Assembly (NCBI RefSeq): GCF_025822765.1
Contig: NZ_JACKUK010000037.1
Span: 1-58,403 of the forward strand
From: Mycobacterium barrassiae
Lineage (GTDB): Bacteria > Actinomycetota > Actinomycetes > Mycobacteriales > Mycobacteriaceae
Direction of reading: 5' to 3'
DNA: 58,403 nucleotides
In this document: positions 2,754-25,768 of the stretch, in pieces
How positions within the stretch are numbered: position 1 is the first letter of the stretch
How the letters are laid out: every line of letters begins with the position of its first letter
Translations under genes and position numbers: made by a program
The notes under the pieces: model-generated
What the model was told of the DNA's origin: nothing
The model's input: only the letters and a program-made list of their open reading frames with translations
The model's database searches: none

Positions 2754-3454
2754 CGCTCGTTCTCGCGGCGCACGGCAGCGTCGATCCACGCTCGGCGGCG
2801 GTCACGCACGCCGTGGCGGGCCGCATCCGACGGCTGCGGCCATGGCTTGACATTCGTCCCGCGTTTCTCGAAAAGGCCGGCCCGAGCCTGGACGATGTGC
2901 TGGCGGATCTCCACATCGGCGTCGTGGTGCCGTTTTTGCTTGCCGACGCCTATCACGCGCAGGTCGACATTCCCGCGATGATCGAGGCGTCGGGATCGCT
3001 GGTAGACCAGGCCGATGTGCTCGGCGAGGATCCCGCCCTGCTGTCGGTGTTGCGGCTGCGGCTCTCGGAGATCGGGGTGTCACCCGAAAGCGAGGGCCTC
3101 GGTGTGCTCGTCGTCGCGGTCGGCTCGTCGAACGCGGCCGCCAACGCACGGACGTCGACCGTGGCAAACACCCTGAGTCGGGGAACGCGTTGGGCGGGCG
3201 CTGAAGTCGCCTTCGCGACAGGACCTCAGCCCAGCGTCGCCGACGCCGCTGATCGGTTGCGGGCTCGTGGCGCCCGGCAGCTGGTGATCGCCCCGTGGTT
3301 CCTAGCCCACGGCATCATCACCGACCGCGTCGCGAAATATGCTGCGGCGCATGGCATTCCCATGGCTGAGCCGCTGGGTTCGCACAACCTCGTCGCCGCG
3401 ACGGTGCTGGACCGCTTCGACGCCGCCACTGCGACGACAGCCCAGGCGGCCTGA
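2750..3454 (+). CDS. che1: Sirohydrochlorin ferrochelatase (CbiX/SirB family)
   Basis: Predicted to insert Fe2+ into sirohydrochlorin to make siroheme for SirA. The N-terminal LVLAAHGSVDPRS motif carries the metal-binding His of class II chelatases, and a second half (GVLVVAVGSSNAAAN, then QLVIAPWFLAHG) repeats the fold, as in two-domain CbiX proteins. GTG 2750 overlaps the cysH stop by 4 nt (GTGA); this start gives 234 aa and begins right at the conserved strand. The sirA-cysH-che1 order equals Rv2391-Rv2393. It ends 4 nt from the convergent gene at 3459. Confidence 0.88.
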   Translation: MTLVLAAHGSVDPRSAAVTHAVAGRIRRLRPWLDIRPAFLEKAGPSLDDVLADLHIGVVVPFLLADAYHAQVDIPAMIEASGSLVDQADVLGEDPALLSVLRLRLSEIGVSPESEGLGVLVVAVGSSNAAANARTSTVANTLSRGTRWAGAEVAFATGPQPSVADAADRLRARGARQLVIAPWFLAHGIITDRVAKYAAAHGIPMAEPLGSHNLVAATVLDRFDAATATTAQAA

Positions 3455-3458
3455 CCGC

Positions 3459-4226
3459 TCAGCGCGGGTTCTTCTCGCCGGCCTCCACGGGGACGACCAA
3501 CCTGTTTTCTGCGGGGGCTACAGGGCACGTCGCATAGTCGGTGAATGCGCACGGCAGGTTCGCGGCCCGGTTGAAGTCGAGTGTCACGAAACCGTCCTCG
3601 CCTGGCGCTGCGACCGAGAGTCCGCGGCATGCAGGGTATATCGTGACACCGCTGGTCGCATCGGTGAAGAGGATGTGCAGACCGCCGTCACGCCCGGTGA
3701 ACGCCAGCAGCTGCGATGGCACGTCGTCCAACTCGAAATCGATCACCCCGACCGCCTGGTGGTGGTGCTCCAGACCTTCCACGACGGCACCGGTGGTCAC
3801 CGGACGCGGGCTGTCGAACGGCACGAATCGGCCGGCAACAACCCATTTCTCGTTGGGCGGATACGCGGGGATCCCGTGATACGCCCGCAGGTGCGGAGAG
3901 CGCGGGTCGTGCACACGCAGTGCTGCCGAGCCGGTTCGCCGGATCACCTCGATGCGGCGATCGCCGTCTTCGACGAGCAACCCAGGTGCCCCCTCGACCG
4001 GTTCGAGCCGTTCGACGCCGTCGATACCTTCCACGGACACCGCATCCTGATCCGCACGCCACCTGCCGGGTAGATCGGCAACAGTCTCGAAATCGCCTGA
4101 GAGCCAATATAAACCGGTGAGGCTGACCCAGCCGAGTGGATCGCCGAAGTACCGCTCCCGCTCGCTGTGCCATTCGTGCCAGGCCGTCTCCAACGCGGAT
4201 TCTGTGCTGTGGTCAACGGTTGTCAT
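3459..4226 (-). CDS. DUF1684 domain protein
   Basis: 255-aa cytosolic protein without signal peptide or membrane segment. The opening (WHEWHSERERYFGDPLGWVS, then LTGLYWL) and the core pattern (GRFVPFD, DFELDDVP, LHILFTDATSG, LDFNRAANLPCAFTDYATCP) are typical of DUF1684 (COG3358), whose biochemical function is not established. The late NxPC-Y-TCP segment holds conserved cysteines. It starts 29 nt after the end of the flavin monooxygenase gene on the same strand, so the two probably form an operon. The sulfur-acquisition setting suggests a role in using organosulfur compounds, but that is inference from neighbours only. Confidence 0.75.
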   Translation of the reverse strand: MTTVDHSTESALETAWHEWHSERERYFGDPLGWVSLTGLYWLSGDFETVADLPGRWRADQDAVSVEGIDGVERLEPVEGAPGLLVEDGDRRIEVIRRTGSAALRVHDPRSPHLRAYHGIPAYPPNEKWVVAGRFVPFDSPRPVTTGAVVEGLEHHHQAVGVIDFELDDVPSQLLAFTGRDGGLHILFTDATSGVTIYPACRGLSVAAPGEDGFVTLDFNRAANLPCAFTDYATCPVAPAENRLVVPVEAGEKNPR

Positions 4227-4255
4227 CTGACATACATCCCTTCCTCAGGTCTTCC

Positions 4256-5326
4256 TCAGGCCACCGCGTCTTGCCGGATCACCTGTGCTGACAGTGGTCT
4301 GCTCGACAGCTGCTGCCGAAGTACTGGGGCCACCTCGGCTTGAAAAAGCTCGAGACTGCGTCGCTTCTGCGCCTCGGTGACACCGTCGGTTTCGGCACTG
4401 AGGTGGATCACTTCGTGACCGAGCCGCTCGTGATAGCGGCCCACCTTGTCGATCACCTGCTGGGGGCTGCCGATCAGCGCAGAGCTGCGGTCTACGAAGT
4501 CCTCGATGGACTCGAACACCACCGGAAGACCGGCGCTGCGCGCGAACGACAGACGCGCCTCGAATGCGGGCCGGTACTCGTCGATCGCCTGCTGTGATGT
4601 CGGTGCGATGTGGAAGCCCGCGGTTCCCGCACCCACCAGGGCGTCGTTCGGATCATGGCCGTAGAACTCCCACCGCGCCCGATAGTGCTGAACGAGTTCG
4701 GCGTATGGCTCGATCGGATACGTCACGTTCGCCGAGAAGATCGGATCGCCGTGCCGCGCAGCCAGATCGACCGAGTCCCTGCTGGTTGCGCTGCCGTGCC
4801 AGATGCGGATCTTCTTCTGCAGTGGACGGGGTAGTGCCTTGGCGTCGACCAGCGGTGGGCGGAAGCGACCGGTCCACGTGACCCGCTCGCTGTCCCAGAG
4901 GGCCCGGAACAATTCGTAACCCTCGCGGTTGCGGTCCCACTGGTCGGCGGTCGTCACGTGGAACAACTCGGCCTGCGCCGCACCGTTGCCTTTGCCGATG
5001 ATCAACTCCAGCCGACCGCCGGACAGGTTGTCGAGCGTCGAATAATCCTCGAACGCCCGCACCGGGTCGAGCAGGCTCAGCGTCGTGACCGCGGTGAACA
5101 GTCCGATCCTCGATGTGCGCGCGGCGATGTTGCTCAACACCACCGGCGGCGACGACGAGATGAACGGATCCTCGTGGCGCTCACCGACAGCGAAGCCGTC
5201 GAAACCGAGTTCTTCGGCCAGTACCGCGTTGTCGACGACCTCCTGCAACCGTTCGGCAGGACTCTTCGCCACACCTGTGCGCGGATCGCGATGATGCGCA
5301 ATCAGCGTGAGCAACAAGAACTTCAT
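4256..5326 (-). CDS. LLM-class flavin-dependent monooxygenase
   Basis: Bacterial-luciferase-like TIM-barrel protein of 356 aa that would use FMNH2 or F420 and oxygen; placement beside sulfonate transport suggests C-S bond oxidation. Family marks are GFDGFAVGERHEDPF near the start, GRLELIIGKGNG and IWHGSATS. ATG 5326 (MKFLLLTL) sits 6 nt after GAGAG; ATG 5332 touches the same GAGAG with no spacing, and a further upstream extension has no family similarity. Transcribed divergently from the ABC permease at 5562 and followed by the DUF1684 gene. Substrate unknown. Confidence 0.85.
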   Translation of the reverse strand: MKFLLLTLIAHHRDPRTGVAKSPAERLQEVVDNAVLAEELGFDGFAVGERHEDPFISSSPPVVLSNIAARTSRIGLFTAVTTLSLLDPVRAFEDYSTLDNLSGGRLELIIGKGNGAAQAELFHVTTADQWDRNREGYELFRALWDSERVTWTGRFRPPLVDAKALPRPLQKKIRIWHGSATSRDSVDLAARHGDPIFSANVTYPIEPYAELVQHYRARWEFYGHDPNDALVGAGTAGFHIAPTSQQAIDEYRPAFEARLSFARSAGLPVVFESIEDFVDRSSALIGSPQQVIDKVGRYHERLGHEVIHLSAETDGVTEAQKRRSLELFQAEVAPVLRQQLSSRPLSAQVIRQDAVA

Positions 5327-5470
5327 CGGCATCTCTCGGCCGCGGGGATAGCTATCTCGATGGTAGCGAACGACATCGGCCACGATTTCATTCCCGAGCA
5401 GTACTTTTACGCCCCCGGCAAATAAAATTCTCCGTGAGCACAGATATCCCACAGCTGCGGACCAGCCGGT

Positions 5471-5476
5471 ACTAAT
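5471..5476 (+). promoter_or_regulatory. -10 element for the leaderless ABC-operon leader
   Basis: ACTAAT (within TACTAAT) ends 6 nt before the ATG at 5483, so transcription would begin at that A. No Shine-Dalgarno precedes the ATG, which supports leaderless initiation. It lies in the 235-nt divergent gap between the flavin monooxygenase (5326) and the permease (5562). Confidence 0.55.
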
Positions 5477-5482
5477 ACTCCA

Positions 5483-5521
5483 ATGACCGCGCCGCTGTCT
5501 GACGACCCCTGCTGTCGCTAG
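5483..5521 (+). CDS. Cysteine leader peptide MTAPLSDDPCCR upstream of the sulfonate-type ABC operon
   Basis: A 12-codon ORF starting at a leaderless ATG and ending TGC-TGT-CGC-TAG. The two adjacent cysteine codons (5510-5515) lie 4 nt before the stop. Just after the stop, CCTTTT (5523-5528) can pair, with one G-U, with AGAAGG (5547-5552), the likely ribosome binding site of the permease GTG at 5562. A ribosome paused on the cysteine codons would cover CCTTTT and free that site. This repeats the logic of the sirA leader with a shorter cysteine tract. Confidence 0.65.
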   Translation: MTAPLSDDPCCR

Positions 5522-5561
5522 CCCTTTTCCGGTCCATCTCAGCAACAGAAGGTCTCTCACA

Positions 5562-6425
5562 GTGTCGGTGTTCGTAGATATCGCTCCCGACGAGCCGCAA
5601 GTCGGCTCGCCGGCCTCCGCCGCGCCGGCAGGCAAGTGGCGCGGTCGGCTCACCCGCGCGGCCCTGCCCCTGCTGTCGTTGGTGGTGTTCGGCATCGTGT
5701 GGCAGCTGGCGGCGGCCAGCGGCATCTGGAACCAAACGTTCGTGCCCTACCCCAGTGCGGTGTGGCGGGCCTTCGTCGACGTCTCCACCACGCACGACGG
5801 AGTCCGCGGATACGCCGGCTACCTGCTGTGGGAGCACCTCTACATGACCCTGCGCCGCGTGCTCGCCGGTGTCGTCATCGGCGTCGCGGTGGGGGTCCTG
5901 CTCGGCCTGGTCATGGGTTCGGTCAGCTGGGTACGCAGCGTGCTCGAGCCCTGGCTGACATTCCTGCGCGCGCTTCCGCCGCTGGCCTACTTCTTCCTTC
6001 TCGTCATCTGGCTCGGAATCGACGAGGCGCCGAAGATCACGCTGCTGGCTCTGGCGGCCCTGCCGCCCGCCGCCGTGGCGACCACCGCAGCCGTCGTCGC
6101 CGCGCCGGTGGGTCTGCAAGAGGCCGCCCGGGCGCTGGGCGCGTCGCGCGCAGAGGTCATCCGCGACATCGTCGTCCCCTCGGCGCTGCCCGAGACGTTC
6201 ACCGGCATCCGTTTGGCTGTCGGCATGGCGTACTCGTCGGTGGTGGCAGCCGAACTGTTCAACGGCATCCCCGGTGTCGGCGGATTGGTCAAGGACGCAA
6301 GCAATTACAACAACACCCCGGTGGTGCTCGTCGGCATCTTCGCGATCGGGTTCTCCGGGCTTGTCATCGACGGTCTGCTTCGTGCCATCGAGCGGCGGAG
6401 CGTCCCTTGGATTGGAAAGGTATGA
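5562..6425 (+). CDS. ABC transporter permease (SsuC/TauC-like)
   Basis: Inner-membrane permease of 287 aa with about six transmembrane segments and the cytoplasmic EAA loop at residues about 186-209 (EAARALGAS, then IVVPSALP), which contacts the ATPase. Sequence style and the order permease-binding protein-ATPase match sulfonate or taurine importers. GTG 5562 is preceded by AGAAGG at 9 nt; the binding protein gene overlaps its stop (ATGA). The cysteine leader upstream makes a sulfur-containing substrate likely. I cannot separate sulfonate, taurine or sulfate-ester specificity from sequence alone. Confidence 0.88.
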   Translation: MSVFVDIAPDEPQVGSPASAAPAGKWRGRLTRAALPLLSLVVFGIVWQLAAASGIWNQTFVPYPSAVWRAFVDVSTTHDGVRGYAGYLLWEHLYMTLRRVLAGVVIGVAVGVLLGLVMGSVSWVRSVLEPWLTFLRALPPLAYFFLLVIWLGIDEAPKITLLALAALPPAAVATTAAVVAAPVGLQEAARALGASRAEVIRDIVVPSALPETFTGIRLAVGMAYSSVVAAELFNGIPGVGGLVKDASNYNNTPVVLVGIFAIGFSGLVIDGLLRAIERRSVPWIGKV

Positions 6426-7468
6426 AAGATATGAAATTCAAGGCCCTCAAGGCTGTAGTCGCCGCAGCGGCTGTCGCCGCCACAGCACTGACCGGTTGCT
6501 CCGTCGACAAGTCGGAGCAGCAGGCCGACAAGCCGACCATCCGGGTCGGTTATCAGACCTTCCCCAGCGGGGACCTGATCGTGAAGAACAACCGCTGGCT
6601 GGAAGAGGCGCTGCCCGACTACAACATCAAGTGGACCAAGTTCGACTCCGGCGCCGACGTGAACACCGCGTTCATCGCCAAGGAACTCGACTTCGGCGCG
6701 CTGGGATCCAGCCCGGTGGCCCGCGGACTGTCGGAACCGCTGAACATTCCGTACAAGGTGGCGTTCATCCTCGACGTGGCCGGTGACAACGAGGCGCTCG
6801 TCGCGCGCAACGACACCGGTATCGACTCCATCGCCGCGCTGAAGGGCAAGCGGGTCGCCACGCCGTTCGCGTCCACCGCGCACTACAGCCTGCTGGCCGC
6901 ACTGGACCAGAATGGGCTGTCCGCCAGCGATGTTCAGTTGATCGACCTGCAACCGCAGGCGATTCTGGCGGCTTGGGACCGCGGCGACATCGATGCCGCC
7001 TACACCTGGCTGCCCACCCTCGACGAGCTCCGCAAGACCGGCAAAGATCTGATCACCAGCCGTCAGCTCGCCGAGGCAGGTAAGCCGACGCTGGACCTGG
7101 CCGTCGTCTCCGACGAGTTCGCCGCCGCCCACCCCGACGTCGTCGACGTCTGGCGTCAGCAGGAGGCCCGCGCCGCGACCCAGATCAACGAGGATCCCGC
7201 CGCCGCCGCCAAGGCCATCGCCGCCGAGATCGGGTTGACCCCCGAGGAGACCGAAGGTCAGATCAAGCAGGCCGTCTTCCTCACCCCCGAGCAGATCGGC
7301 TCGCCGGAATGGCTTGGTGCCGAGGGGAAGCCGGGCAACCTGGCGGCCAACCTGCAGAGCGCATCACAGTTCCTGGCCGATCAGAAGCAGATTCCGTCGG
7401 CCGCACCACTGGAGACGTTCCAGGACGCGATCTACACCAAGGGCCTGCCAGGTGTCCTCAGTCAGTGA
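6422..7468 (+). CDS. ABC transporter substrate-binding lipoprotein (SsuA/TauA-like)
   Basis: 348-aa lipoprotein with a signal peptide and lipobox ALTGC; Cys26 would be lipidated, leaving the protein anchored outside the membrane. The mature start TIRVGYQTFPSGDLIV and FDSGADVNTAFIAKELDFGA are typical of aliphatic sulfonate/taurine binding proteins (NMT1/TauA-like type II periplasmic-binding fold). ATG 6422 overlaps the permease stop by 4 nt; ATG 6431 is a possible second start. It binds the transported compound and delivers it to the permease at 5562. The ligand is not deducible from sequence. Confidence 0.88.
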   Translation: MKDMKFKALKAVVAAAAVAATALTGCSVDKSEQQADKPTIRVGYQTFPSGDLIVKNNRWLEEALPDYNIKWTKFDSGADVNTAFIAKELDFGALGSSPVARGLSEPLNIPYKVAFILDVAGDNEALVARNDTGIDSIAALKGKRVATPFASTAHYSLLAALDQNGLSASDVQLIDLQPQAILAAWDRGDIDAAYTWLPTLDELRKTGKDLITSRQLAEAGKPTLDLAVVSDEFAAAHPDVVDVWRQQEARAATQINEDPAAAAKAIAAEIGLTPEETEGQIKQAVFLTPEQIGSPEWLGAEGKPGNLAANLQSASQFLADQKQIPSAAPLETFQDAIYTKGLPGVLSQ

Positions 7469-8261
7469 GCTGAAGGACGATGCGCGGCAGGACAACACGG
7501 CGGCGATCCGGATCGCCGGCGTGTCCCACCGTTACGGCAGAGGGCGCAACGAGGTCACCGCGCTGGGTCCGGTCGACCTCAGCGTCGACCCCGGATCGTT
7601 CCTGGTTCTGGTCGGCGCGTCGGGCTGCGGTAAGAGCACTCTGCTGCGCCTGCTCGCCGGTTTCGAATCGCCAAGCGAGGGACAGGTGCAAGTGTCGGGT
7701 GCACCACCGACTCCTGGGGTGACAGCGGGTGTGGTGTTCCAGCAGCCGCGGCTGTTCCCGTGGCGCTCGGTGGGCGGAAACATCGATCTGGCACTCAAGT
7801 ACGCGAAGGTGCCACGGGAGCGCCGGGCGGCCCGGCGTGACCAACTGCTGTCCCGGGTGGGCCTCGAAGGCACCGCCGACCGCAAGATCTGGGAGATCAG
7901 CGGTGGCCAACAACAGCGTGTCGCCATCGCGCGCGCATTGGCGGCCGAGACACCGTTGTTCCTTCTCGACGAACCGTTCGCGGCGCTCGACGCGCTCACC
8001 CGGGAGCGGCTGCAGGAGGATGTTCGCCAGGTCAGTGCCGAATCCGGGCGCACAACGGTCTTCGTCACGCACAGCGCCGACGAGGCCGCATTCCTCGGAT
8101 CGCGGATCGTGGTGCTCACCCGCCGGCCGGGTCAGGTGGCGCTGGACCTCCCAGTGGACCTGCCCCGCACCGGGGTGGACGCCGACGAACTTCGCCGCTC
8201 CCCCGAATACACGGCGATTCGCACCGAAGTCGGCCGAGCTGTCAAGGCCGCAGCGGCGTAA
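7452..8261 (+). CDS. ABC transporter ATP-binding protein (SsuB/TauB-like)
   Basis: 269-aa nucleotide-binding subunit. Walker A GASGCGKST, Q-loop FQQPRLFPW, signature ISGGQQQR and Walker B LFLLDEPFA are all intact, followed by the H-loop VFVTHS. GTG 7452 is the only start that keeps the N-terminal strand and overlaps the binding-protein gene by 17 nt; the ATG at 7314 would overlap far into it. It energises uptake with the permease at 5562. The end RTEVGRAVKAAAA is normal for the family. Confidence 0.88.
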   Translation: MSSVSELKDDARQDNTAAIRIAGVSHRYGRGRNEVTALGPVDLSVDPGSFLVLVGASGCGKSTLLRLLAGFESPSEGQVQVSGAPPTPGVTAGVVFQQPRLFPWRSVGGNIDLALKYAKVPRERRAARRDQLLSRVGLEGTADRKIWEISGGQQQRVAIARALAAETPLFLLDEPFAALDALTRERLQEDVRQVSAESGRTTVFVTHSADEAAFLGSRIVVLTRRPGQVALDLPVDLPRTGVDADELRRSPEYTAIRTEVGRAVKAAAA

Positions 8262-8357
8262 TAAGACTCACGCTGACTCCAGATGTAGTGAATCGCTGGC
8301 CACCGGCCTAGCGTCCAAGCAACCTATCGACTCTTTCCATCGAAGGATGGCCCCCTC

Positions 8358-9806
8358 ATGTCCGAAATCACCGCAGCGCCAGATTCTTTAAACGAAGAAC
8401 CCGCCCCGGCGGTACGCAAACTGCGTGGCAACCTCGGCGTCGCATCCATCGTCTTCATGGTGGTGGCCGCGGCCGCGCCGCTCGGCGTCATCGGCGGCGT
8501 CGTCCCGCTGGGCCTGGCCGCGGGCAACGGGGCGGGCTTTCCCGCGACATTCATCATCTCGACGGTGATCCTGCTGCTCTTCGCGGTCGGCTTCACCGCG
8601 ATGACACCCCATGTCGAGGAGGCGGGCGCGTTCTTCTCGTATGTCCGCAAGTCGCTTGGACTGCCTGCAGGTATCGGCATCGCGTTCGTCGCGATCCTCA
8701 GCTACGTCGCCCTGGAAGCCGGTGTCTACGGGCTGCTCGGGCCGGCGGGCACTGCGGTCGTCGAACTGTTCGGCGGACCGGCACTGCCATGGTGGTTGTT
8801 CGCGGCACTGGCGTTCGCCGTGGTGACCTTTCTCGGATACCGCAACATCGAGCTGTCGAGCAGGGTGCTCGGAGTGCTGCTGACCGCGGAGATCGCGATC
8901 GTCGTCGTCCTCGATCTCGTCATCGTCGCCCGCGGCGGCGACCACGGGCTGTCGACCGGCATCGTCAACCCCAGCGCCATCGTGTCCGGATCATTGGGCA
9001 TCGGATTGCTTTTCGCGATCATCAGCTATGTGGGGTTCGAGGCGACGGCCATCTTCCGCGACGAAGCCCGCACACCGGAGCGCACGATTCCCCGCGCCAC
9101 CTATGTCGCACTGATCCTGATCGGCGTGTTCTACGCCGTGACGAGCTGGGCCTTGATCTCGGGCTGGGGTGACGAGGCGGCCGTCGCGCACGCCACCGAC
9201 AACGGCGCCACATTCCTCGGTGACACCGCAGCGCGCTACATCGGCGTGATAGGCGCCGACATCATCACCGTGCTGTATTTCACCAGCCTGTTCGCCTGCA
9301 TCCTGGCTTTCCACAACGTCTCAGCACGCTATTTGTTCGCGCTGTCGCAGCGCGACATCCTGCCCGTGTCGTTGAGCCAGCCACACCCCCGGCACGGCTC
9401 ACCGCACCGGGCCTCGCTGTGGATCTCCGCCGTCGTCGCGGTCAGCATCGCGCTTGCGGTGGTGTTCAAGCTCGACCCGGCCGCGCAGTTCTACACCTGG
9501 TTCGCCGGCACGACGACCGTCGGCATCATCGTGCTGCTGATCGCGACCAGCGTGGCGGTGCTGGTGTTCTTCGGCAAGGACCGGCGCGGCCTGTCGCAAT
9601 GGCGGGTCCGAATCGCCCCGGCACTCGGGCTGGTCGGGCTGCTCGTGTCGCTGGTGCTCATCCTCGCCAACCTCTACACCCTCGTCGGCGGGTCCAGCAT
9701 CCTTGCCTGGGTCATCATCGGACTGCTTGTCACGGCGTTCGTCGTGGGCGCCGTCGTCGGGACGAAGGCTCGCGACTACCGAGACAACACCGTCGCAGCA
9801 TCATGA
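8358..9806 (+). CDS. APC-superfamily amino acid/amine permease
   Basis: 482-aa membrane protein with about 12 transmembrane segments, a short polar N-terminus and the opening LGVASIVFMVVAAAAPLGV, typical of the APC superfamily. YVGFEATAIFRDEARTPERT is the conserved consensus loop of that superfamily. The start has GAAGGA about 9 nt upstream. The glutamine-synthetase-like gene begins inside its stop (ATGA). Together with that ligase it suggests import of an amine or amino acid followed by gamma-glutamylation, as in polyamine or alkylamine use. The setting between sulfonate uptake and two flavoenzymes suggests a sulfur-containing amine. Confidence 0.85.
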   Translation: MSEITAAPDSLNEEPAPAVRKLRGNLGVASIVFMVVAAAAPLGVIGGVVPLGLAAGNGAGFPATFIISTVILLLFAVGFTAMTPHVEEAGAFFSYVRKSLGLPAGIGIAFVAILSYVALEAGVYGLLGPAGTAVVELFGGPALPWWLFAALAFAVVTFLGYRNIELSSRVLGVLLTAEIAIVVVLDLVIVARGGDHGLSTGIVNPSAIVSGSLGIGLLFAIISYVGFEATAIFRDEARTPERTIPRATYVALILIGVFYAVTSWALISGWGDEAAVAHATDNGATFLGDTAARYIGVIGADIITVLYFTSLFACILAFHNVSARYLFALSQRDILPVSLSQPHPRHGSPHRASLWISAVVAVSIALAVVFKLDPAAQFYTWFAGTTTVGIIVLLIATSVAVLVFFGKDRRGLSQWRVRIAPALGLVGLLVSLVLILANLYTLVGGSSILAWVIIGLLVTAFVVGAVVGTKARDYRDNTVAAS

Positions 9807-11155
9807 CGAACTCAGTGGAAACGCAGGCGCTGCGGCCCACCACGTCTGCAAGAGAGCGAGAGTTGCGCCATGCGCTCGGCGACGGTTCGCTCACCGAGAT
9901 CGAGGTGGCGTGGAGTGACCCGTTCGGACACGCACAGGGCAAACGGATTCCCGCGTCGCAGTTCCTGAGCCGGGCGCTCGGCAGCGGATTCGCCTTCTGC
10001 GAAGCATCTTTGGGGTGGAACACCGAGGGCACAGTCGTCGAGTCGCTTGAGCTGACCAACTGGGCCGGCGGCTATCCCGACGTGTACGCCGTACCCGATC
10101 TCGCGACGTACCGGCCGCTGCCCTGGCGTCCGCTGGTTGGTCACGTGATCTCCGATATCGTTGCCCACGACCGGAACCCGTCGCCGCTCGATCCTCGCGC
10201 GGTGCTCAAGAAGGTGCTCGCGCGCCTTGCTTCGCTGGGCTACACCGCAAAGATCGGGGTCGAGTTCGAGCTCTACCTGCTCAACTCCGACGGCTCACCG
10301 TTCCAGGACGACATCCACGCCTACTCGCTGGAGAACGCCAACGCGCTCGATCCGCTGCTCACCGATCTGTACGAGACGTTGAGCGCCTTCACGCGTTTGG
10401 AGGGCATTCAGACCGAGTACGGTCCCGGTCAAATCGAGACGAATCTGGTCTACACCGACGCGTTGGAGGCCGCCGACGATGCGGTCCGGCTCAAGTACGC
10501 CGCCAAGGAGGTGGCGCGGAAACACGGCAAGATCGCGAGTTTCATGCCGAAGCCGTTCACCGAACACTCCGGCAGCAGCCAGCATCTGCACATCTCGCTC
10601 TGGCGCGACGGCCAGCCTGCCTTCGCACCGACCGGCGGCGCCGAGAACGAGACCGCGCTGCATGCGATCGCGGGCCTGCTCGAGCACCTGCCGTCGATCA
10701 CGTTGTTCGGGGCACACTCGGTCAACGCCTACCGACGCTTCGTCCCCGATTCGTTCGCACCGGCGACAGTGACCTGGAGTCGCGACAACCGCAGCGCCGC
10801 GGTGCGATCCTTAGTCGAGGCCGACCCGTCGGCCAGCCGGATCGAGCTGCGCAGCGGCGCGTCGGATGCCAACCCGTACTGGTTGATCGCCTCCGCGCTG
10901 GCGGCGGTGATCGCGGGCCTGGAGGCCAAGGCCACTCCCCCGCGCCTCGAGGGCGGCAACCTGTACAGCCAAGGTGTTCCGCTGCCCGAATCACTGGGTG
11001 TGGCACTGGAACTGGCTACCCGCGACGACACCATCGCCGACATCCTCGGTGCCGGTTCGGTGCGAGATTTCGCGGCGCTGGCCCGCAGCGAATGGGTGGA
11101 GTACTCGAACGAGGTCAGCGACTGGGAACGCAGGCGCTACCTGGCCCGCTCGTGA
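9803..11155 (+). CDS. Glutamine-synthetase-like gamma-glutamyl-amine ligase
   Basis: 450-aa GS-fold enzyme. Motifs include the Glu-containing metal site IGVEFELYL, EYGPGQIETNL, SGSSQHLHISLW and the late SGASDANPYWLIASALAA. Its length and N-terminus (DGSLTEIEVAWSDPFGHAQG) resemble the PuuA/IpuC/GlnA3-type proteins that join glutamate to amines using ATP, rather than the housekeeping GlnA with its adenylylation loop. It is translationally coupled to the permease before it (ATGA at 9803) and the monooxygenase after it (GTGA at 11152). The amine substrate is unknown. Confidence 0.82.
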   Translation: MTNSVETQALRPTTSARERELRHALGDGSLTEIEVAWSDPFGHAQGKRIPASQFLSRALGSGFAFCEASLGWNTEGTVVESLELTNWAGGYPDVYAVPDLATYRPLPWRPLVGHVISDIVAHDRNPSPLDPRAVLKKVLARLASLGYTAKIGVEFELYLLNSDGSPFQDDIHAYSLENANALDPLLTDLYETLSAFTRLEGIQTEYGPGQIETNLVYTDALEAADDAVRLKYAAKEVARKHGKIASFMPKPFTEHSGSSQHLHISLWRDGQPAFAPTGGAENETALHAIAGLLEHLPSITLFGAHSVNAYRRFVPDSFAPATVTWSRDNRSAAVRSLVEADPSASRIELRSGASDANPYWLIASALAAVIAGLEAKATPPRLEGGNLYSQGVPLPESLGVALELATRDDTIADILGAGSVRDFAALARSEWVEYSNEVSDWERRRYLARS

Positions 11156-12168
11156 CCGCGCCACGGTTCGGCGTGTGGGCGCCGGTCTACGGCAACCACG
11201 GCGCCCGCGAGCATCCGCACGACGCGCCCGACGCGAGCTACCGCCGCACCCGCGATCTGCTCGTGCGCGCCGAAGCGGCCGGTTTTGACTCGACCCTGGT
11301 GGCACAGCACGTCATTCACCCCAGCAATACCGAGGACGACGTGCTCGAGACGTGGTCGACGATCGCGGCGGTCGCGGAAGCGACGTCGCGCATCGAGCTG
11401 ATCGGTGCGGTGAAGCCGCTGCTGTTCAACCCGTTGGTGTTCGCGAAGCTCTCCGCGAACATCGCAGCCATCGCCGAGGGCCGGTTGTCCGTCAACCTCG
11501 TCACCGGATGGTTCCTGCCCGAATTGGAGGGTTTGGGTCTGGATCCTCTCGATCACGATGACAGGTACGCGTATTCGCGCGAGTGGCTCTCGACCGTCAC
11601 GGACCTGTGGGCCGGTAAGCACGTCGCCATCGGCGACCATGGTGGCCAGCCGGCCTTGATCCGGCCCGCGCCTGCCGACCCGCCGCCCCTGTACGTCGGC
11701 GGCGAATCCGAACCCGGTCGGGCGCTCGCTGCCGAAAAGGCGGATGTGTTCTTCATCAACGGCCGACCGTTGTCCGACACCATCGAGGTGATCGAGGACC
11801 TGCGGGCCCGGCCGCGTGACGGTGCCCCGCTGCGATTCGGACTGTCCGCCTTCGTGATCGCGCGCGAGACCGAGGCGGAAGCACTCGCGGAGCTGGACTA
11901 CCTACATTCCCTCGACGACGCCGTGAACAGGCCCGAGATCTCCGGCGGCACCGACCCCAAAACCCAGATGTACAAGGTGCTTTCCGGCACCAAGCGGATC
12001 GGCTCCAACGGCGGCACACTGGCGGGCCTGGTCGGCAGCTACGACCAGGTCATCGAACGCATCAACGCATTTCACGAGGCCGGTATCGAGCTGTTCATGC
12101 TCCAGTTCCAGCCGATCGAGTCCGAGGTGGACCGGTTCGCGGACAAGATCATTCCCCACTTCCGATAA
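11152..12168 (+). CDS. FMNH2-dependent monooxygenase (SsuD/SfnG-like)
   Basis: 338-aa luciferase-like enzyme close in pattern to alkanesulfonate and dimethylsulfone monooxygenases: RFGVWAPVYGNHG, IELIGAVKPLLFNPLVFAK, RLSVNLVTGWF, and the ending GLVGSYDQVIERI and LFMLQFQPIESE. It would split C-S bonds to release sulfite for SirA. The GTG at 11152 overlaps the ligase stop by 4 nt. An SfnB-like flavoenzyme follows after 13 nt. Which reductase supplies FMNH2 is not visible here. Confidence 0.86.
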   Translation: MTAPRFGVWAPVYGNHGAREHPHDAPDASYRRTRDLLVRAEAAGFDSTLVAQHVIHPSNTEDDVLETWSTIAAVAEATSRIELIGAVKPLLFNPLVFAKLSANIAAIAEGRLSVNLVTGWFLPELEGLGLDPLDHDDRYAYSREWLSTVTDLWAGKHVAIGDHGGQPALIRPAPADPPPLYVGGESEPGRALAAEKADVFFINGRPLSDTIEVIEDLRARPRDGAPLRFGLSAFVIARETEAEALAELDYLHSLDDAVNRPEISGGTDPKTQMYKVLSGTKRIGSNGGTLAGLVGSYDQVIERINAFHEAGIELFMLQFQPIESEVDRFADKIIPHFR

Positions 12169-12181
12169 CCATGGAGTCGCT

Positions 12182-13417
12182 ATGACCGTCACCCGTGAAC
12201 CCGTCGCGCCGCGCGCGCCGTTCTCGACCGAGCCACTCGGCGGATCAGTGGCCGAGCGGTTGGCCCGGCTGCCCGAGATCGTGGCATCGCTTCGACGCGA
12301 GGATCCCGCCGCAGAACGCGAGCGGGTGCTGCAGTACGACGCCGTCGAAGCGATCCGGCGCGCGGGGGTGCTCGCACTGCGTGTGCCGACCGAGTTCGGC
12401 GGACCAGGCGGCACCGCGCGCGACGTACTCAGCGCGGTGATCCAGATCGGCCGCGGGAGTTCGAATGTCGCACAAGCGCTACGGGCACACTTCGGCTTCT
12501 CCGAACGCCTACTGAGCAACCGCGCGATTCCCGCCGAGCGCGCCGAGTGGTTCCCGCGACTGAACGCGGGCATCGTCGTCGGCAACGCGATCACGGATGC
12601 GGCGGGCCGGGCGCCGTCGAGCGCCGACACCAAGGTGCTCCCCGACACCTCAGGCGTGCTGCGGCTCAACGGCTACAAGTTCTACTCCACCGGAACGCTG
12701 TTCGCCGACGTCATCGCGGTGTCGGCGTTGGACGCCGACGGCCGCGATGTGCAGGCCATCATCCCCGCCGATCGCGAAGGCGTCGAATTGTTCGACGACT
12801 GGGACGGATTCGGCCAGCGCACAACCGCCAGCGGCGGCACCCGGTTCACCGAGGTCGAGGTGCACGCCGAGGAGGTCGTCACGGTGTCCGAGGGCAATAC
12901 GCTCGGACACGGGACCGCATTCCTGCAGCTGTATCTGGCGGCGGTGGCCGTCGGCATCGCCTACGCCGTATTCGACGACGCGGTCGAGTACGTCCGCACC
13001 AAGGCACGTCCGGCGGCGCATTCGGTCGCGGATAGTGCGGCCACCGATCCCTTTGTCCTGCAAGCGGTCGGCGATATCTCGGCGGCCGCATCGTCAGCAG
13101 AAGCGATCGTCCTGGCGGCGGCCGATCCGATCGACCGTCTTGTCGACCAGGGCCTGCAGCATGATCAGGACGCCGTCGCGGACGTCGCCGTCACGATCGC
13201 CAAGGCCCAGCTGGTGGCCGAACGATTGACCCTCTCGGCCGCTGAGCGGTTGTTCGATACCGGCGGCGCGTCGGCCACCGCCCGCGCGCTGAACCTCGAC
13301 CGGCATTGGCGCAACGTCCGCACCGTCGCCACGCATAGTCCGTTGGCGTACAAGGCCTATGTCGCGGGCAATTACGCCGTCAACGGAGTCTTTCCGCCGG
13401 CCAACGGCTACTTCTGA
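12182..13417 (+). CDS. SfnB/DszC-like acyl-CoA-dehydrogenase-fold flavoenzyme
   Basis: 411-aa protein of the acyl-CoA dehydrogenase fold. The marks TEFGGPGG, DTSGVLRLNGYKFYSTGT and FGQRTTASGGTRF, and the C-terminal LNLDRHWRNVRTVATHSPLA, are shared with the SfnB and dibenzothiophene monooxygenase (DszC) group, which oxygenate sulfur compounds with reduced flavin rather than dehydrogenating acyl-CoA. It is the last gene of the run from 5562 or 8358 and faces the cysA copy at 13449. A diverged relative lies at 23449-24681. Substrate unknown. Confidence 0.83.
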   Translation: MTVTREPVAPRAPFSTEPLGGSVAERLARLPEIVASLRREDPAAERERVLQYDAVEAIRRAGVLALRVPTEFGGPGGTARDVLSAVIQIGRGSSNVAQALRAHFGFSERLLSNRAIPAERAEWFPRLNAGIVVGNAITDAAGRAPSSADTKVLPDTSGVLRLNGYKFYSTGTLFADVIAVSALDADGRDVQAIIPADREGVELFDDWDGFGQRTTASGGTRFTEVEVHAEEVVTVSEGNTLGHGTAFLQLYLAAVAVGIAYAVFDDAVEYVRTKARPAAHSVADSAATDPFVLQAVGDISAAASSAEAIVLAAADPIDRLVDQGLQHDQDAVADVAVTIAKAQLVAERLTLSAAERLFDTGGASATARALNLDRHWRNVRTVATHSPLAYKAYVAGNYAVNGVFPPANGYF

Positions 13418-13448
13418 GCACCAGTCACCACTGCTCGCGGTAAGAAAG

Positions 13449-14507
13449 TCAGGCGGTGGTCAGCGACTCGTCGTCGTCGGCTTCATCGGCGGCAGGGATT
13501 TCGGAGCCGCCGGGCAGTTCGGGAACCCGCGTCGCACGCACGTACACGGTGTCGCCCTCCTTGAGGCCGAGCGCCTCGGCATCGCCGCGGGTGATCTGCG
13601 CGGTGAAAGGCGTATTGTCCGCGGCGCTGACGAGTTCGACACGAACTTCGAAGCCCAGCATGACGATCCGCTCGATGGTGGCCCGCACCACGCCAGTCGT
13701 CTGGACGGACTGATCGCTGCTCGCGATCGCCATATCGGGATTGCGACCGACGCGGATGTCATGCGGCCGGACCAGGGTGCCGTTCAAAGTCGACACCGTG
13801 CCGAGGAACGACATCACAAACGCATTGGCCGGTTTGTCGTAAACCTCGGTGGGAGAACCGACTTGCTCGATGCGGCCCTTGTTGAGCACCGCGATCCGGT
13901 CGGCGACATCCAGCGCCTCCGCCTGGTCATGCGTCACCAGCACAGTCGTCACATGGACCTCGTCGTGCAGGCGTCGGAGCCACGCGCGCAAGTCTTCGCG
14001 CACCTTGGCGTCCAACGCGCCGAACGGTTCGTCGAGCAGCAGCACTTCGGGGTCGACGGCCAGTGCGCGCGCCAAGGCCATCCGCTGACGCTGCCCACCG
14101 GACAGCTGGTTGGGGTAGCGACTTTGGAAGCCGCTCAGTCCCACCACCTCGAGCAGGTTGTCCACCCGGTCCTTGACCTCGTTCTTGGGCCGCTTGCGGA
14201 TCTTCAGCCCGAACGCGATGTTGTCCCGGACCGTCAGATGCTTGAACGCCGCGTAATGCTGGAAGACGAACCCGATGCCGCGGCGCTGTGGCGGCACGTC
14301 CGTGACGTCGTGTCCGTTGATGATGACGGTGCCGGTGTCTGGCTGATCGAGGCCCGCGATCGCGCGCAGCAGTGTCGATTTACCCGAACCGCTGGGCCCC
14401 AACAGCGCAGTCAGTGACCCTTTCGGCACCTCGAAGTCGACGTTGTCGAGCGCCGCGAAGTCACCGTAGTGCTTGTTGGCCCCCCGGACCTCGATGGCGT
14501 TGGTCAT
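13449..14507 (-). CDS. Second CysA-type sulfate ABC ATPase (tandem copy)
   Basis: 352-aa ATPase with Walker [24 protein letters not shown], Walker [13 protein letters not shown] and a C-terminal regulatory domain ending [20 protein letters not shown]. It is co-linear with the cysA copy at 14620-15672 through the whole nucleotide-binding domain and diverges mainly after residue 230 and at the acidic tail. A 112-nt gap separates the copies. Rv2397c in M. tuberculosis is single at this place. The second copy may make the transporter with a different permease or a different regulatory input, or may simply be redundant. Confidence 0.88.
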
Positions 14508-14619
14508 GTCATCTCCTCAGCGGTGAGCCTAGTTGCTCGTCGCGCGCGCCGGTCGCCGGACAACCCCGGAAACGATTTGACCATCCCGCCGAGGCCGAAA
14601 CGCCGTAGTGTCGCGCGCC

Positions 14620-15672
14620 TCAGTTGGCTACCAGCCGCCCCGAGTCGCCGTCCCTGATCGCTCGACCCTTCGACCCCAACGGCGGGACCCGGGTGGCCCG
14701 CACGTAGACGGTGTCCCCCGCTGCGAGGCCTAACGCCTCGGCGTCACCGCGGGTGATCTCAGCGGTGAACGGGGATCCGGTGACGTCGTCGGTGAGCTCT
14801 ACGCGCACTTCGAATCCCAGCTTGACGACACGGTCGATCGTCGCCTTCACCACCCCGGTCGTCTCGGTGCCGGCATCGAACGCGACAGCGAGTTCGGGAT
14901 CGCGACCGACTCGGATGTCGTGCGGCCGAACCAGTGCACCGTCCAGAGCCGACACGGCGCCAAGGAATGACAGCACGAACTCGTTCACCGGCTCGTCGTA
15001 CACCTCGACCGGAGACCCGACCTGCTCGATGCGGCCTTTGTTCAGCACCGCAATCCGGTCGGAGACGTCGAGGGCCTCCGCCTGGTCGTGCGTCACCAGC
15101 ACGGTGGTCACGTGCACCTCGTTGTGGAGCCGGCGCAGCCATGCGCGCAGATCCTCGCGCACCTTGGCGTCCAACGCACCGAACGGCTCGTCGAGAAGCA
15201 GGACCTCGGGGTCGATCGCAAGGGCACGGGCCAGTGCCATCCGCTGACGCTGACCGCCCGAAAGCTGTGCGGGGTAGCGGTCTTTGAACCCTGTGAGACC
15301 CACGACCTCGAGCAGTTCGTCGACCTTCCGATTGACTTCTGTCTTGGGTCGCTTGCGGATCTTCAGCCCGAAGGCGATGTTCTCGCGCACCGTCAGGTGC
15401 TTGAACGCCGCGTAATGCTGGAAGACGAAACCGATGCCACGTCGTTGAGGCGGCTCGTCGGTCACATCGCGTCCGTTGATCGTGACCGTGCCGGAATCGG
15501 GCCGGTCGAGCCCGGCGATCGCACGCAACAACGTGGACTTGCCTGAGCCGCTTGGACCCAGCAACGAGGTCAGTGATCCTTTCGGCACTTCGAAGTCGAC
15601 GTTGTCGAGTGCGGCGAAGTCACCGTAGTGCTTGTTCGCACCCCGCACCACAATGGCGTGATCGGTGGACAT
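14620..15672 (-). CDS. cysA: Sulfate/thiosulfate ABC transporter ATPase
   Basis: 350-aa ATPase subunit of the sulfate importer, equivalent to Rv2397c. Walker [11 protein letters not shown]-loop [13 protein letters not shown], signature LSGGQRQR and Walker [12 protein letters not shown] are intact; the C-terminal third is the TOBE-type regulatory domain. It starts 16 nt after cysW, so it belongs to the subI-cysT-cysW-cysA operon. The nearly parallel gene at 13449 follows it. Confidence 0.93.
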
Positions 15673-15688
15673 GCATCTTCTCCTGGGA

Positions 15689-16507
15689 TCAATCGTCGGT
15701 CTTGGTGCGTTTACGCTGAGCGTCGAAGATGATCTGGGCCACCAGCACGGAGACGGCCACTGCCATCAGCACAGTCGAAATGGTGTAGGCGCCATAGGGA
15801 TTGCCGAGCGTGTAACGGTCGTGGACGAGCAGTGTCAGGGTCTGCGACTTACCAGGCAGGTTCGATGACACGATCAATACGGCACCGAATTCGCCGAGCG
15901 TGCGGGCCACCGTCAGCACCACCCCGTACGTCAGCCCCCACCGTATGGACGGCAGCGTCACACGCCAGAACGTCTGCCACCACGTGGCGCCCAGCGTCGC
16001 CGATGCCTCTTCCTGATCGGTACCGATCTCATGCAGGACCGGCTCTACCTCGCGTATCACGAATGGAAGCGTCACGAAGATGCTGGCCAGCACGATCCCG
16101 GGAAATCCGAAGATGATCTTGAAGCCGAGGTCGTTCTCCACGAAACCGAACAGACCGGCAGAACCCCACAGCACGATCAGCGCGACGCCCACCACCACCG
16201 GCGACACCGCGAACGGCAGATCGATGACTGCTTGCAGAGCGTTCTTGCCGCGGAACTTCCTGCGCGCCAACACAATCGCGGTGGGGACTCCGAAAACGAC
16301 GTTCAGCGGCACGACGATCGCCACCACCAACAGCGACAGCTGAAGCGCCGACTGGGCGGCGGGGGTGGTGATGGATGCCCAGAACTCACCCAGGCCGGGA
16401 CTGAACGACCGCCACAGAATCGCCCCCAACGGGACGAGCAGAAGCGCGAATACATAAACGATCGCGATGAATCGCAGCGTCAGACGGGTCGGCAGGGCCA
16501 GCTTCAT
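15689..16507 (-). CDS. cysW: Sulfate ABC transporter permease
   Basis: 272-aa membrane subunit of the sulfate importer with about six transmembrane helices; [22 protein letters not shown] is split as the EAA-type loop that docks on CysA. Equivalent to Rv2398c. ATG 16507 overlaps the cysT stop by 4 nt, so the two permeases are translationally coupled. The C-terminus is charged ([14 protein letters not shown]). Confidence 0.92.
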
Positions 16508-17379
16508 CGTTCAGCTTGCTCCCGCTTCGCTGCCCGCGCGCCGAAGTACCTGAGGACGAAGAGAACGACGAACGAGATCGCAAGCAGCACAATCGAAACT
16601 GCCGCCGCACCGGCGCGGTCATCGTTCTCGATAAGGGTCCGGATCCACTGCGAGGACACCTCGGTCTTACCCGGGATGGCACCGCCGATCAGCACGATCG
16701 AACCGAATTCTCCGATCGCCCGGGAGAACGCCAGACCCGCGCCCGACAGCAGCGATGGCGCCAGCGCAGGCAGGATGACCTTGACGAAGATCGTCAGGTT
16801 GTTGGCCCCCAGCGAGGCCGCGGCTTCTTCTACCTCACTGTCGAGTTCCAGCAGCACCGGCTGCACGGCACGCACCACGAACGGCAGCGTGACGAACGCG
16901 AGTGCCAACCCGACGCCCCACGCGGTGTGCTGGATGTGAATGCCCACCGGGCTGCCCGGTCCGTACAGGGAAAGCAACACCAAGCTGGCGACGATGGTCG
17001 GGAGCGCGAAGGGCAGATCGATGACCACGTCGACGACCCGCTTGAGCGGGAAGTCGTCCCGCACCAGCACCCAGGCGATGAGTAGGCCGAACACCACGTT
17101 GACCACCGTGACGATGATCGAGATGGTCAGCGTCACCCGGAACGACGCCAGCGCCGACGGTGAGGTCACCGTGTTCCAGAACTCCGCAGGGCCGCCTTCG
17201 ATCGAGGTCCACAGGATCGCGGCCAGCGGCAGTAGCACGATCAGAGACAGCCACAGCACCGCGACACCCACCTGGAGGCGAGCCCCGTCGGGACGCAGAA
17301 GACCGGCCCCCCGGCCCGGCCCGTCAGGACCGAGCTCGGGGCGGCTGGCTTCTGGATTCGGGTCGATAACCGAGGTCAT
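16504..17379 (-). CDS. cysT: Sulfate ABC transporter permease
   Basis: 291-aa membrane partner of CysW, equivalent to Rv2399c. IDLPFALPTIVASLVLLSLY and the loop EEAAASLGANNLTIFVKVI, then LPALAPSLLSG, are typical of CysT/CysU. I start it at ATG 17379, which overlaps the subI stop (ATGA at 17376-17379); the GTG at 17478 would overlap subI by 100 nt and add a low-complexity, non-conserved head. About six membrane spans after a proline-rich cytosolic N-terminus of some 40 residues. Confidence 0.92.
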   Translation of the reverse strand: MTSVIDPNPEASRPELGPDGPGRGAGLLRPDGARLQVGVAVLWLSLIVLLPLAAILWTSIEGGPAEFWNTVTSPSALASFRVTLTISIIVTVVNVVFGLLIAWVLVRDDFPLKRVVDVVIDLPFALPTIVASLVLLSLYGPGSPVGIHIQHTAWGVGLALAFVTLPFVVRAVQPVLLELDSEVEEAAASLGANNLTIFVKVILPALAPSLLSGAGLAFSRAIGEFGSIVLIGGAIPGKTEVSSQWIRTLIENDDRAGAAAVSIVLLAISFVVLFVLRYFGARAAKREQAER

Positions 17380-18401
17380 CCCGTGGTTTCTGTGTAGATC
17401 TTGGTGATCGAGCCGTTCTTCTTGTCGAACAGTGCCGGGTCGACGTCGGCCCAGCCGCCGAGATCGGCGATCGTCCACAGCTTCTGCGGCACGGGGTACT
17501 TGTCGGCGAACTGCTCGAGGACGGCGGGGTCAACCGGCCGGAAGCCCGCCTCGGCCCACAGCTTCTGGCCTTCCGGGGTGAACTGGAAGTTGAGGAACTC
17601 CCGCGCCTTCTCCTGGTGCTGGCTGGTGTTGACGACCGCCACCGGGTTCTCGATCTTGAACGTCTGCGGCGGAGTGACGTGCTCGAGGTTGAAGTTGATG
17701 GCTTCGTTCTCGTAGGCGAGAAGGACGTCACCGGTGCCCTGGGCGAACACGTCGGTGGCCTCACGTCCCGAGCCGGGACGCAGTTTCACGTGCTGACGCA
17801 CCAGCTCGTCAACGTAGGCGAGGCCGGCCGCCGGATCCTGACCGCCGTTGCTCTTGACGGCATACGGCGCCAGCAGGTTCCATTTCGCCGCACCCGAGCT
17901 CAGCGGGCTGGGCGTGATGACCTCGATGCCGGGCTTCAACAGGTCGTCCCAGTCATGGATGTTCTTCGGATTGCCCTCGCGGACAGCGAAGGTCACCACC
18001 GAACCGAACGGCACGCCATTGTGGACACCGGCGTTCCAGTCCTCGTTGACCAAACCAGCCTTCACGAGGCGCGTGATGTCCGGCTCGACGGAGAAGTTCA
18101 CCACGTCGGCGGGCTTGCCGGACTCCACCGCGCGGGACTGGTCACCTGAGGCCCCGTAGGACGCGGTGACCTCGACACCTTCACCCTCCGGGGTGGCGGC
18201 GAATGCGGCGCTGGTCTTGCTCCAGCCCGGTTCTGGCACGGCGTAGGCGACCAGGGTCAGCGTGGTGTGCGCGTCGGAGCCGCCGCCCCCTTCGCCCGCG
18301 ACGTCGCTCGCGCCGCCGCTGCAGCCGGCCAGCACGGCCGCCGTCGCGGCGAGCGCGACGGCGGTGCGCCAGCTCTTGAGGGGTTTGAAGGTGCTGAACA
18401 T
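17376..18401 (-). CDS. subI: Sulfate-binding lipoprotein
   Basis: 341-aa extracytoplasmic sulfate receptor, equivalent to Rv2400c. Signal peptide with lipobox VLAGC (Cys27), a glycine/serine linker, then the type II periplasmic-binding fold; YGASGDQSRAVESGKPADVV and GDVLLAYENEAINFN are the classical sulfate/thiosulfate-binding protein patterns. AAAGG lies 5 nt before ATG 18401. It is the first structural gene of the transporter operon, and a polycysteine leader at 18530-18622 precedes it by 128 nt. Confidence 0.93.
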   Translation of the reverse strand: MFSTFKPLKSWRTAVALAATAAVLAGCSGGASDVAGEGGGGSDAHTTLTLVAYAVPEPGWSKTSAAFAATPEGEGVEVTASYGASGDQSRAVESGKPADVVNFSVEPDITRLVKAGLVNEDWNAGVHNGVPFGSVVTFAVREGNPKNIHDWDDLLKPGIEVITPSPLSSGAAKWNLLAPYAVKSNGGQDPAAGLAYVDELVRQHVKLRPGSGREATDVFAQGTGDVLLAYENEAINFNLEHVTPPQTFKIENPVAVVNTSQHQEKAREFLNFQFTPEGQKLWAEAGFRPVDPAVLEQFADKYPVPQKLWTIADLGGWADVDPALFDKKNGSITKIYTETTG

Positions 18402-18529: not shown

Positions 18530-18622
18530 TCAGCAACAACAACAGACATCAGCGACGGCGCTGAATCCCACGGCAATGAGGGCCAGAACGTGGCCACTCT
18601 TGTTGCCGGACGCCGTACGCAT
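18530..18622 (-). CDS. Polycysteine leader peptide (30 aa) upstream of subI
   Basis: ATG 18622 opens a 30-codon ORF ending ADVCCCC-stop: TGT TGT TGT TGC TGA. The body (MRTASGNKSGHVLALIAVGF) is unremarkable. There is no ribosome binding site, and TATTCT (plus 18630-18635) sits 7 nt upstream, so it is most likely leaderless. Four consecutive cysteine codons directly before the stop are the signature of mycobacterial cysteine-responsive attenuators. It fits control of sulfate uptake by cysteine supply. Confidence 0.75.
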   Translation of the reverse strand: MRTASGNKSGHVLALIAVGFSAVADVCCCC

Positions 18623-24681: not shown

Positions 24682-24723
24682 GGCGGGAACCTTAGGTTGA
24701 GGGGATGTTTGGTGTAGCGGGCG

Positions 24724-25694: not shown

Positions 25695-25768
25695 CCCGGC
25701 AACGTAACCGCCCGCGACGGCGCTGCCGAGGGTTGTGATCATAAGGATGAAATCGGCTCGGTGGCGCC

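Follow-up and report, generated by a model that had tools for sequence, protein, structure and literature searches.

Gene content of the locus

This study concerns a run of four plus-strand genes in Mycobacterium barrassiae, on a contig (NZ_JACKUK010000037.1, assembly GCF_025822765.1) that was analysed over a stretch of 58,403 nucleotides, here called the window, and whose closest named relatives belong to Mycolicibacterium and Mycobacterium. The run encodes an APC-superfamily amino acid or amine permease (8358-9806; PF00324, E=1.2e-20; PF13520, E=1.7e-19; above the cut-off of no NCBIfam model), a glutamine-synthetase-like, predicted gamma-glutamyl-amine ligase (9803-11155; PF00120, E=2e-85), a luciferase-like, SfnG-like monooxygenase dependent on reduced flavin mononucleotide that putatively cleaves carbon-sulfur (C-S) bonds (11152-12168; PF00296, E=3.3e-54), and an SfnB/DszC/MsuC-like monooxygenase of the acyl-CoA-dehydrogenase fold that may oxygenate sulfur (12182-13417; 307 bits on the SfnB model). 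An earlier note on this DNA had read the four as a possible pathway for a sulfur-containing amine, and the genes are indeed present as open reading frames (ORFs) at these coordinates and of the families it had named. It had also described them as overlapping by 4 and then by 13 nucleotides; the 4-nucleotide overlaps hold, between permease and ligase (9803-9806) and, if the monooxygenase starts at the GTG at 11152 (its longest frame begins at 11092), between ligase and monooxygenase, but the 13 nucleotides ahead of the SfnB-like gene (12169-12181) are a gap.

To the left lie a sulfite/nitrite-reductase-type, sirA-like gene (370-2052, plus strand; PF01077/PF03460), whose NCBIfam matches are nitrite and sulfite reductases, all below cut-off, and cysH, for an adenylyl sulfate (APS) or phosphoadenylyl sulfate (PAPS) reductase (2016-2753, plus strand; PF01507, exceeding the PRK02090 cut-off). 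To the right, on the minus strand, are the genes of a sulfate ATP-binding cassette (ABC) transporter, comprising two cysA copies, cysW, cysT and subI (13449-18401), so that the run sits inside a sulfate-assimilation locus. A further ABC transporter, absent from the earlier note, directly precedes the run in the same direction, with a TauC-like permease (5562-6425), a TauA-like substrate-binding protein (6425-7468, start codon not fixed) and a TauB-like ATPase (7470-8261), and ahead of it is a possible leaderless short ORF that ends Cys-Cys-Arg (5483-5521, plus strand). Also to the left of these ABC genes are a CbiX gene and two minus-strand genes, one of the DUF1684 family and the other a second luciferase-like gene. 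The tandem cysA copies (13449-15672, minus strand) are 83% identical; among related loci, two are found in L158 and one each in L056, L159 and L160.

A ligase with an altered ammonium site

Against the GlnA model the ligase scores 235 bits (cut-off 429) and against that for gamma-glutamylputrescine synthetase 215 bits (cut-off 650), falling short of both. It retains the catalytic residues of glutamine synthetase, including those that we take to bind metal and glutamate, and its ammonium site is altered: the flap reads DSFAP, as against GYEAP in a true glutamine synthetase, and the flap glutamate has given way to phenylalanine, which stands there in at least 97% of 83 ligase rows (duplicates included). 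The glutamate in question is Glu327 of the ammonium site in S. typhimurium numbering (PMC8998196), its column on the ligase being our own placement. Phenylalanine in place of this glutamate is what one would expect in a ligase whose amine substrate is not ammonia, and the prediction of an amine-type gamma-glutamyl ligase is supported by the residue pattern, with the catalytic residues kept and the flap glutamate lost, as the earlier note would have it.

An APC permease beside a gamma-glutamyl-type ligase is a common layout in amine catabolism, and one alternative is that the run breaks down an ordinary amine for nitrogen or carbon (PuuA/IpuC/GlnA4-like), with flavoenzymes that oxidise carbon or nitrogen and sulfur neighbours that are coincidental. 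Two plasmid relatives of the ligase, about 36% identical, are annotated ipuC. The characterised relatives described in PMC8998196 (PuuA, IpuC, GMAS and S. coelicolor GlnA2, GlnA3 and GlnA4) share with our ligase its family, its catalytic residues and its altered ammonium site, and those described there act on sulfur-free amines. However, the present ligase is linked to sulfur genes and to sulfur-type flavoenzymes, both of which have sulfur-scavenging relatives, and it is only about 32-41% identical to relatives outside its own clade, the exceptions being a ligase from Streptomyces (52-54%) and the second copy carried by genome G511 (54%). Nor do GlnR-like boxes speak for nitrogen control, with 29 in the window against 40 expected and none at 4801-11113, by a weak pattern. 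Considered with the repeated sulfur linkage on the ligase tree described below, these points leave the amine-catabolism alternative, in our opinion, very improbable.

Two flavoenzymes with sulfur-scavenging relatives

The best NCBIfam match of the monooxygenase is SfnG, to which it is 29% identical, at 181 bits against a cut-off of 383; the SsuD/MsuD model gives 123 bits against 518. In MsuD, the sulfonate-binding residues are W195, R225, R296 and S299 (PMC8234197), and at these columns the monooxygenase has N, S, N and T, as does every ortholog that is not gapped at them (42-43 of 45), whereas at the W195 (N), H227 (F) and R296 (N) columns its letters are those of SfnG. Of the former label 'SsuD/SfnG-like', the second half is strengthened and the first weakened, and with the sulfonate-binding residues missing, direct desulfonation of gamma-glutamyl-taurine or gamma-glutamyl-homotaurine becomes less likely. 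Five plasmid relatives of the monooxygenase (48-52% identical) carry the same letters at the MsuD columns, and in all five of the regions opened, from 14 records found, they adjoin genes annotated as SsuA-type transport, SfnB or MsuE.

The SfnB-like protein reaches 307 bits on the SfnB model, below the cut-off of 431. Histidine stands at the columns of DszC H92 and H391 in 47 of 47 SfnB-like proteins, and the H388 column holds Val, Ile or Leu, where MsuC has Gln. The serine column of FCSG is Thr, again in 47 of 47. Elsewhere in the window (23452-26818, minus strand), a second SfnB-like gene, a LysR-type regulator and a 2-oxoglutarate oxygenase are consecutive, and this SfnB-like gene (23452-24681) is nearer to true SfnB at 400 bits, yet still below the same cut-off.

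As a pair, the two enzymes resemble the SfnG-like group C and MsuC/SfnB-like group D enzymes of the Pseudomonas sfn/msu dimethylsulfone pathway (SfnG, MsuC, MsuD), including its sulfur context (PMC8234197), although the matches here are all below family cut-offs and a ligase and an amine-type permease have been added. There is a likeness, too, to the Dsz 4S pathway (DszC, DszA, DszB), in that DszC-like S-oxygenation would be followed by luciferase-like C-S cleavage, but by best model the present monooxygenase is SfnG-like rather than DszA-like, a ligase is added, and no DszB was noted among the genes scanned.

Conservation of the gene set across the genus

Conservation of gene order had been put forward as a check on the pathway, and it speaks in its favour. 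In a single draw of 248 genus genomes, which share descent and thus are not independent draws, we called orthologs at identities of at least 58% (SfnB), 62% (monooxygenase) and 65% (permease), and counted genes as beside one another when within 6 kilobases (kb). The ligase ortholog is found in 43 of the 248 (the second copy in G511 being left out). SfnB qualifies in 37 of 38 genomes matched (G344, matching at 43%, and a second copy in G178 at 45% were excluded); 36 of these 37 also carry the ligase, and in 36 of 36 the two are neighbours. The monooxygenase qualifies in 25 of 30 genomes matched, excluding matches of 45-51%, which comprise second copies and those in five other genomes, and in 25 of 25 it lies within 6 kb of the ligase. 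The permease ortholog occurs in 40 genomes (of 86 matched), 31 times beside the ligase, and a MetQ-like protein in 18, with the ligase adjacent in 15. The four genes are a real module, with an order beyond chance, though Fisher values for their adjacency overstate independence among kin genomes.

The module comes in several versions. Permease, ligase, monooxygenase and SfnB stand in that order in 10 of the 43 ligase genomes and, with a MetQ-like gene added, in a further 8; the layout ligase, monooxygenase, SfnB accounts for 6, and that kind with a MetQ-like gene 1; SfnB appears without the monooxygenase in 11, and neither flavoenzyme is beside the ligase in 7. These last 7 invite the suggestion that ligase and permease are an amine-handling or detoxification unit of their own and the flavoenzymes separate sulfur genes in the same operon, a suggestion that also draws on three genomes with permease and MetQ-like gene but no close ligase, and on the occurrence of flavoenzyme relatives without a ligase elsewhere. 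Independent cargo, however, would not be expected to travel as these genes do: a close SfnB ortholog without the ligase is seen in just 1 of 37 genomes and a close monooxygenase ortholog in 0 of 25, figures inflated by shared descent. We give the two-unit suggestion hardly more credence than amine catabolism.

Some loci look incomplete. L146, L147 and L148 have permease, MetQ-like and winged-helix genes and no ligase in the fetched stretch, and in L157 the ligase is broken by a stop; from these, the module seems to decay piecewise. Two contigs labelled as Acidobacteria and as an Actinomycetota metagenome-assembled genome (L080 and L112) have ligases that fall within the mycobacterial part of the tree, and are possibly mislabelled or mixed bins. 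The Streptomyces ligase mentioned above comes from Streptomyces hyaluromycini (L100), where it is found with an APC permease, an AsnC-type regulator and, further on, a P450-like ORF (family judged by eye); a short ORF with three cysteines (8203-8331) lies ahead of that permease, and no SfnB or monooxygenase match is present at this locus.

Sulfur genes around the ligase

We surveyed 50 loci with a close ligase, the window included, whose fetched flanks are of unequal length and some of whose labels were set by hand. Sulfur genes lie in the fetched flank of 18: sulfate or sirA-type genes in 5, these together with a taurine-type ABC transporter in 2, a taurine-type ABC transporter in 10, and cysK-cysE in 1. 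Another 14 loci carry a MetQ-like gene. A quick tree of the ligase, with 51 rows, scatters the loci linked to sulfur genes over at least four distinct positions, namely the window with L055 and L056; L077, L080, L112 and L088; the L075-L107 clade; and L071, the locus with cysK-cysE. The sulfur-linked state requires 8 changes on this tree, with gain and loss indistinguishable and a long outgroup row.

Individual loci illustrate the linkage. In L055 (M. agri), sirA-cysH-cbiX stand about 200 nucleotides upstream of the four genes, on the same strand and with no ABC genes between. Downstream of the L071 ligase come a permease relative (59%) and then a cysteine synthase and a serine acetyltransferase, both of which exceed their cut-offs. 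Genome G326, which has the permease and no close ligase, shows a YeiH-type gene (below cut-off) after the permease and, at a greater distance, a DUF1684 gene together with a monooxygenase of the NtaA/DmoA family that passes its cut-off. The position of the run, flanked by sirA-cysH on one side and the sulfate transporter genes on the other, and the sulfur adjacency in at least four places on the tree, support the predicted sulfur-scavenging role of the module, much as had been proposed.

The taurine-type transporter

Might the substrate be an amino-sulfonate? In this alternative, taurine, homotaurine or hypotaurine would enter through the TauABC-like transporter or the permease, be gamma-glutamylated and then be desulfonated to sulfite by the luciferase-like enzyme, with the SfnB-like enzyme optionally oxidising sulfinate to sulfonate in the manner of MsuC. 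Its main evidence is the transporter. The taurine contacts of E. coli TauA described in PMC6906117 include Gln30, Glu106, Thr132 and Asp205, and the TauA-like protein keeps the first three in all 13 rows, and Asp205 in 12, the remaining row being gapped, a likeness to TauABC/SsuABC sulfonate import that goes with a score of 225 bits on the taurine-binding model, below the cut-off of 304. A TauA-type ABC transporter lies within 8 kb of the ligase in 9 of the 43 ligase genomes, in two layouts (same direction in G000, G330, G421 and G419; divergent in G431, G304, G413, G458 and G451), and the plasmid relatives of the monooxygenase adjoin sulfonate-type importers. Yet linkage is rare overall: of the 88 genomes among the 248 with such a transporter, 51 have no ligase, and in 28 of the 37 with both the two do not lie within 8 kb of one another. 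The sulfonate-binding residues of MsuD, moreover, are replaced in every ortholog with residues at those columns, and we regard the amino-sulfonate route as unlikely.

Possible regulators and upstream features

Genes for a MetQ/NlpA-like protein and a winged-helix protein adjoin the permease or ligase in 14 of the 50 loci, one of them from Millisia brevis. No signal peptide or lipobox is seen by eye on the N-termini of the MetQ-like proteins, leaving aside L051 and L073, whose frames continue further upstream. In N. meningitidis MetQ, the residues that contact methionine include R156, N213, N238, Y81, F98, H100 and Y103 (PMC6739813). Arg156 and Phe98 are kept in 18 of 18 of the MetQ-like set and Asn213 in 16, and four others are replaced throughout (Tyr81 to Phe, His100 to Tyr, Tyr103 to Phe and Asn238 to Glu, each in 18 of 18), so that the full contact set is not retained. 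We infer a cytosolic sensor of a ligand that would be methionine-like but not methionine.

Canestrari et al. in 2020 reportedly described poly-cysteine short ORFs as cysteine-responsive attenuators in mycobacteria. The window has two, at 157-258 (plus strand) ahead of sirA and at 18530-18622 (minus strand) ahead of subI, the latter kept in L056, L077, L080, L088 and L112 and the former in L055; neither the permease nor the ligase of the window is directly preceded by one. The Cys-Cys short ORF at 5483-5521 recurs in G330, G421 and M. stellerae (the last twice, as L056 and L160), all three close relatives, and not in other lineages. A set of 42 further operon starts, at approximate positions, gave two chance-like matches (L074 and L093), and the same rule finds one at 59 of 880 background gene starts. 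We take it as no more than a hint of sulfur regulation of the operon. An Rfam scan of window positions 1-24000 at E<=1 returned no match and thus no riboswitch support. A candidate motif, TGAGCNNAGATATCCC, common to the upstream regions of the window and L055, was rejected; it occurs once in the window (0.18 expected at <=2 mismatches) and is not conserved in L056 or L159. Separately, a short ORF ending Cys-Cys-Cys precedes a gene of the c16 family, near the ligase locus, in L064, L075, L077, L080, L089-L091, L093 and L094; the cluster has a thioester (TED) domain, seen in both members scanned, and its product is possibly a cysteine-responsive surface protein.

A proposed route to sulfur

On balance we lean, with some hesitation, towards the view that this soil-mycobacterial module takes sulfur from an organosulfur compound bearing an amino group, by way of gamma-glutamylation and two flavin enzymes. 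The APC permease would take up the compound, and the ligase, at the expense of ATP, would join its amino group to the gamma-carboxyl of glutamate; the SfnB/DszC-like enzyme would then oxygenate the sulfur and the SfnG-like monooxygenase would cut the C-S bond of the resulting oxidised compound, and the sulfur so freed would pass by way of sulfite to the sirA-type reductase. The gamma-glutamyl group would protect the amine, akin to the N-acetyl group in S-alkylcysteine salvage by B. subtilis, and would be taken off later by a hydrolase encoded elsewhere. The gene set, its conservation, its sulfur neighbourhoods and its residue patterns come from sequence, and from these we infer every reaction, the order of steps, the substrate and the removal of glutamate. 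The nested occurrence of the genes is consistent with the ligase acting first, without proving it: close monooxygenase orthologs are always accompanied by SfnB, and 36 of the 37 SfnB genomes also have the ligase.

As for the substrate, the residue evidence favours a thioether or sulfone over an aminosulfonate because the monooxygenase residues are SfnG-like and not MsuD-like, and the favoured class would be amines or amino acids of a methionine-like thioether, sulfoxide or sulfone type, a fit helped by the MetQ-like protein beside the permease in other branches. Of the candidates originally listed, a methylthio-amine thus fits better, and taurine and homotaurine lose ground with the missing MsuD sulfonate residues.

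The nearest precedent in logic is the S-alkylcysteine salvage of B. subtilis, which, as described in PMC10863075, runs through acetylation, CmoO, CmoJ and deacetylation, so that the amine is acylated before flavin-monooxygenase sulfoxidation and C-S cleavage. The differences are that acetylation there would be replaced here by an ATP-dependent, glutamine-synthetase-like ligase, that the proposed S-oxygenase here has the acyl-CoA-dehydrogenase fold, and that no deacylase is seen in the run. No N-acetyltransferase or deacetylase was found among the window genes scanned near the run, the rest of the genome not having been searched for them. It is conceivable, if doubtful, that gamma-glutamylation stands in for N-acetylation of a methionine- or S-alkylcysteine-like compound and that in many species the system is controlled by a MetQ-derived cytosolic sensor with a winged-helix protein.

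Several observations weigh against the proposed sulfur route. The genus genomes behind the co-occurrence counts share descent; 18 of the 50 loci have neither sulfur genes nor a MetQ-like gene in the fetched flank; and 7 of the ligase genomes lack both flavoenzymes beside the ligase. Relatives of the flavoenzymes appear to work without a ligase elsewhere: five genus genomes have monooxygenase relatives at 45-51% and no close ligase, and no glutamine-synthetase-like gene is annotated in seven plasmid regions (five with monooxygenase and two with SfnB relatives), for which the gene table is incomplete. The taurine contacts of the TauA-type protein point to an amino-sulfonate, if that protein feeds this pathway. 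The window genome has no MetQ-family match, and no gamma-glutamyl hydrolase, flavin reductase or aldehyde dehydrogenase is found among the genes scanned at 370-18401; elsewhere in the genome, a strong C26 hydrolase match occurs once, on contig C23 next to another glutamine-synthetase-like gene, and a gamma-glutamyltranspeptidase once, on contig C14.

What the module may mean

Among the literature matches listed, we recognised neither a gamma-glutamyl ligase in sulfur or C-S chemistry nor this gene set. 'Glutamine synthetase' does not appear in the main texts of the actinobacterial sulfur omics papers PMC8557817, PMC7661421 and PMC11852219, 'gamma-glutamyl' appears once in the text of the first (as gamma-glutamylcysteine) and nowhere in that of the last, and 'SfnB' is missing from PMC13352529. 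Gamma-glutamylation is known as an entry to the nitrogen and carbon catabolism of amines; here it appears tied to sulfur acquisition, which would widen its role. The module would also allow the function of a group of glutamine-synthetase-like ligases from soil mycobacteria to be predicted, and would supply a testable list of substrates for the poorly understood SfnB-type enzymes.

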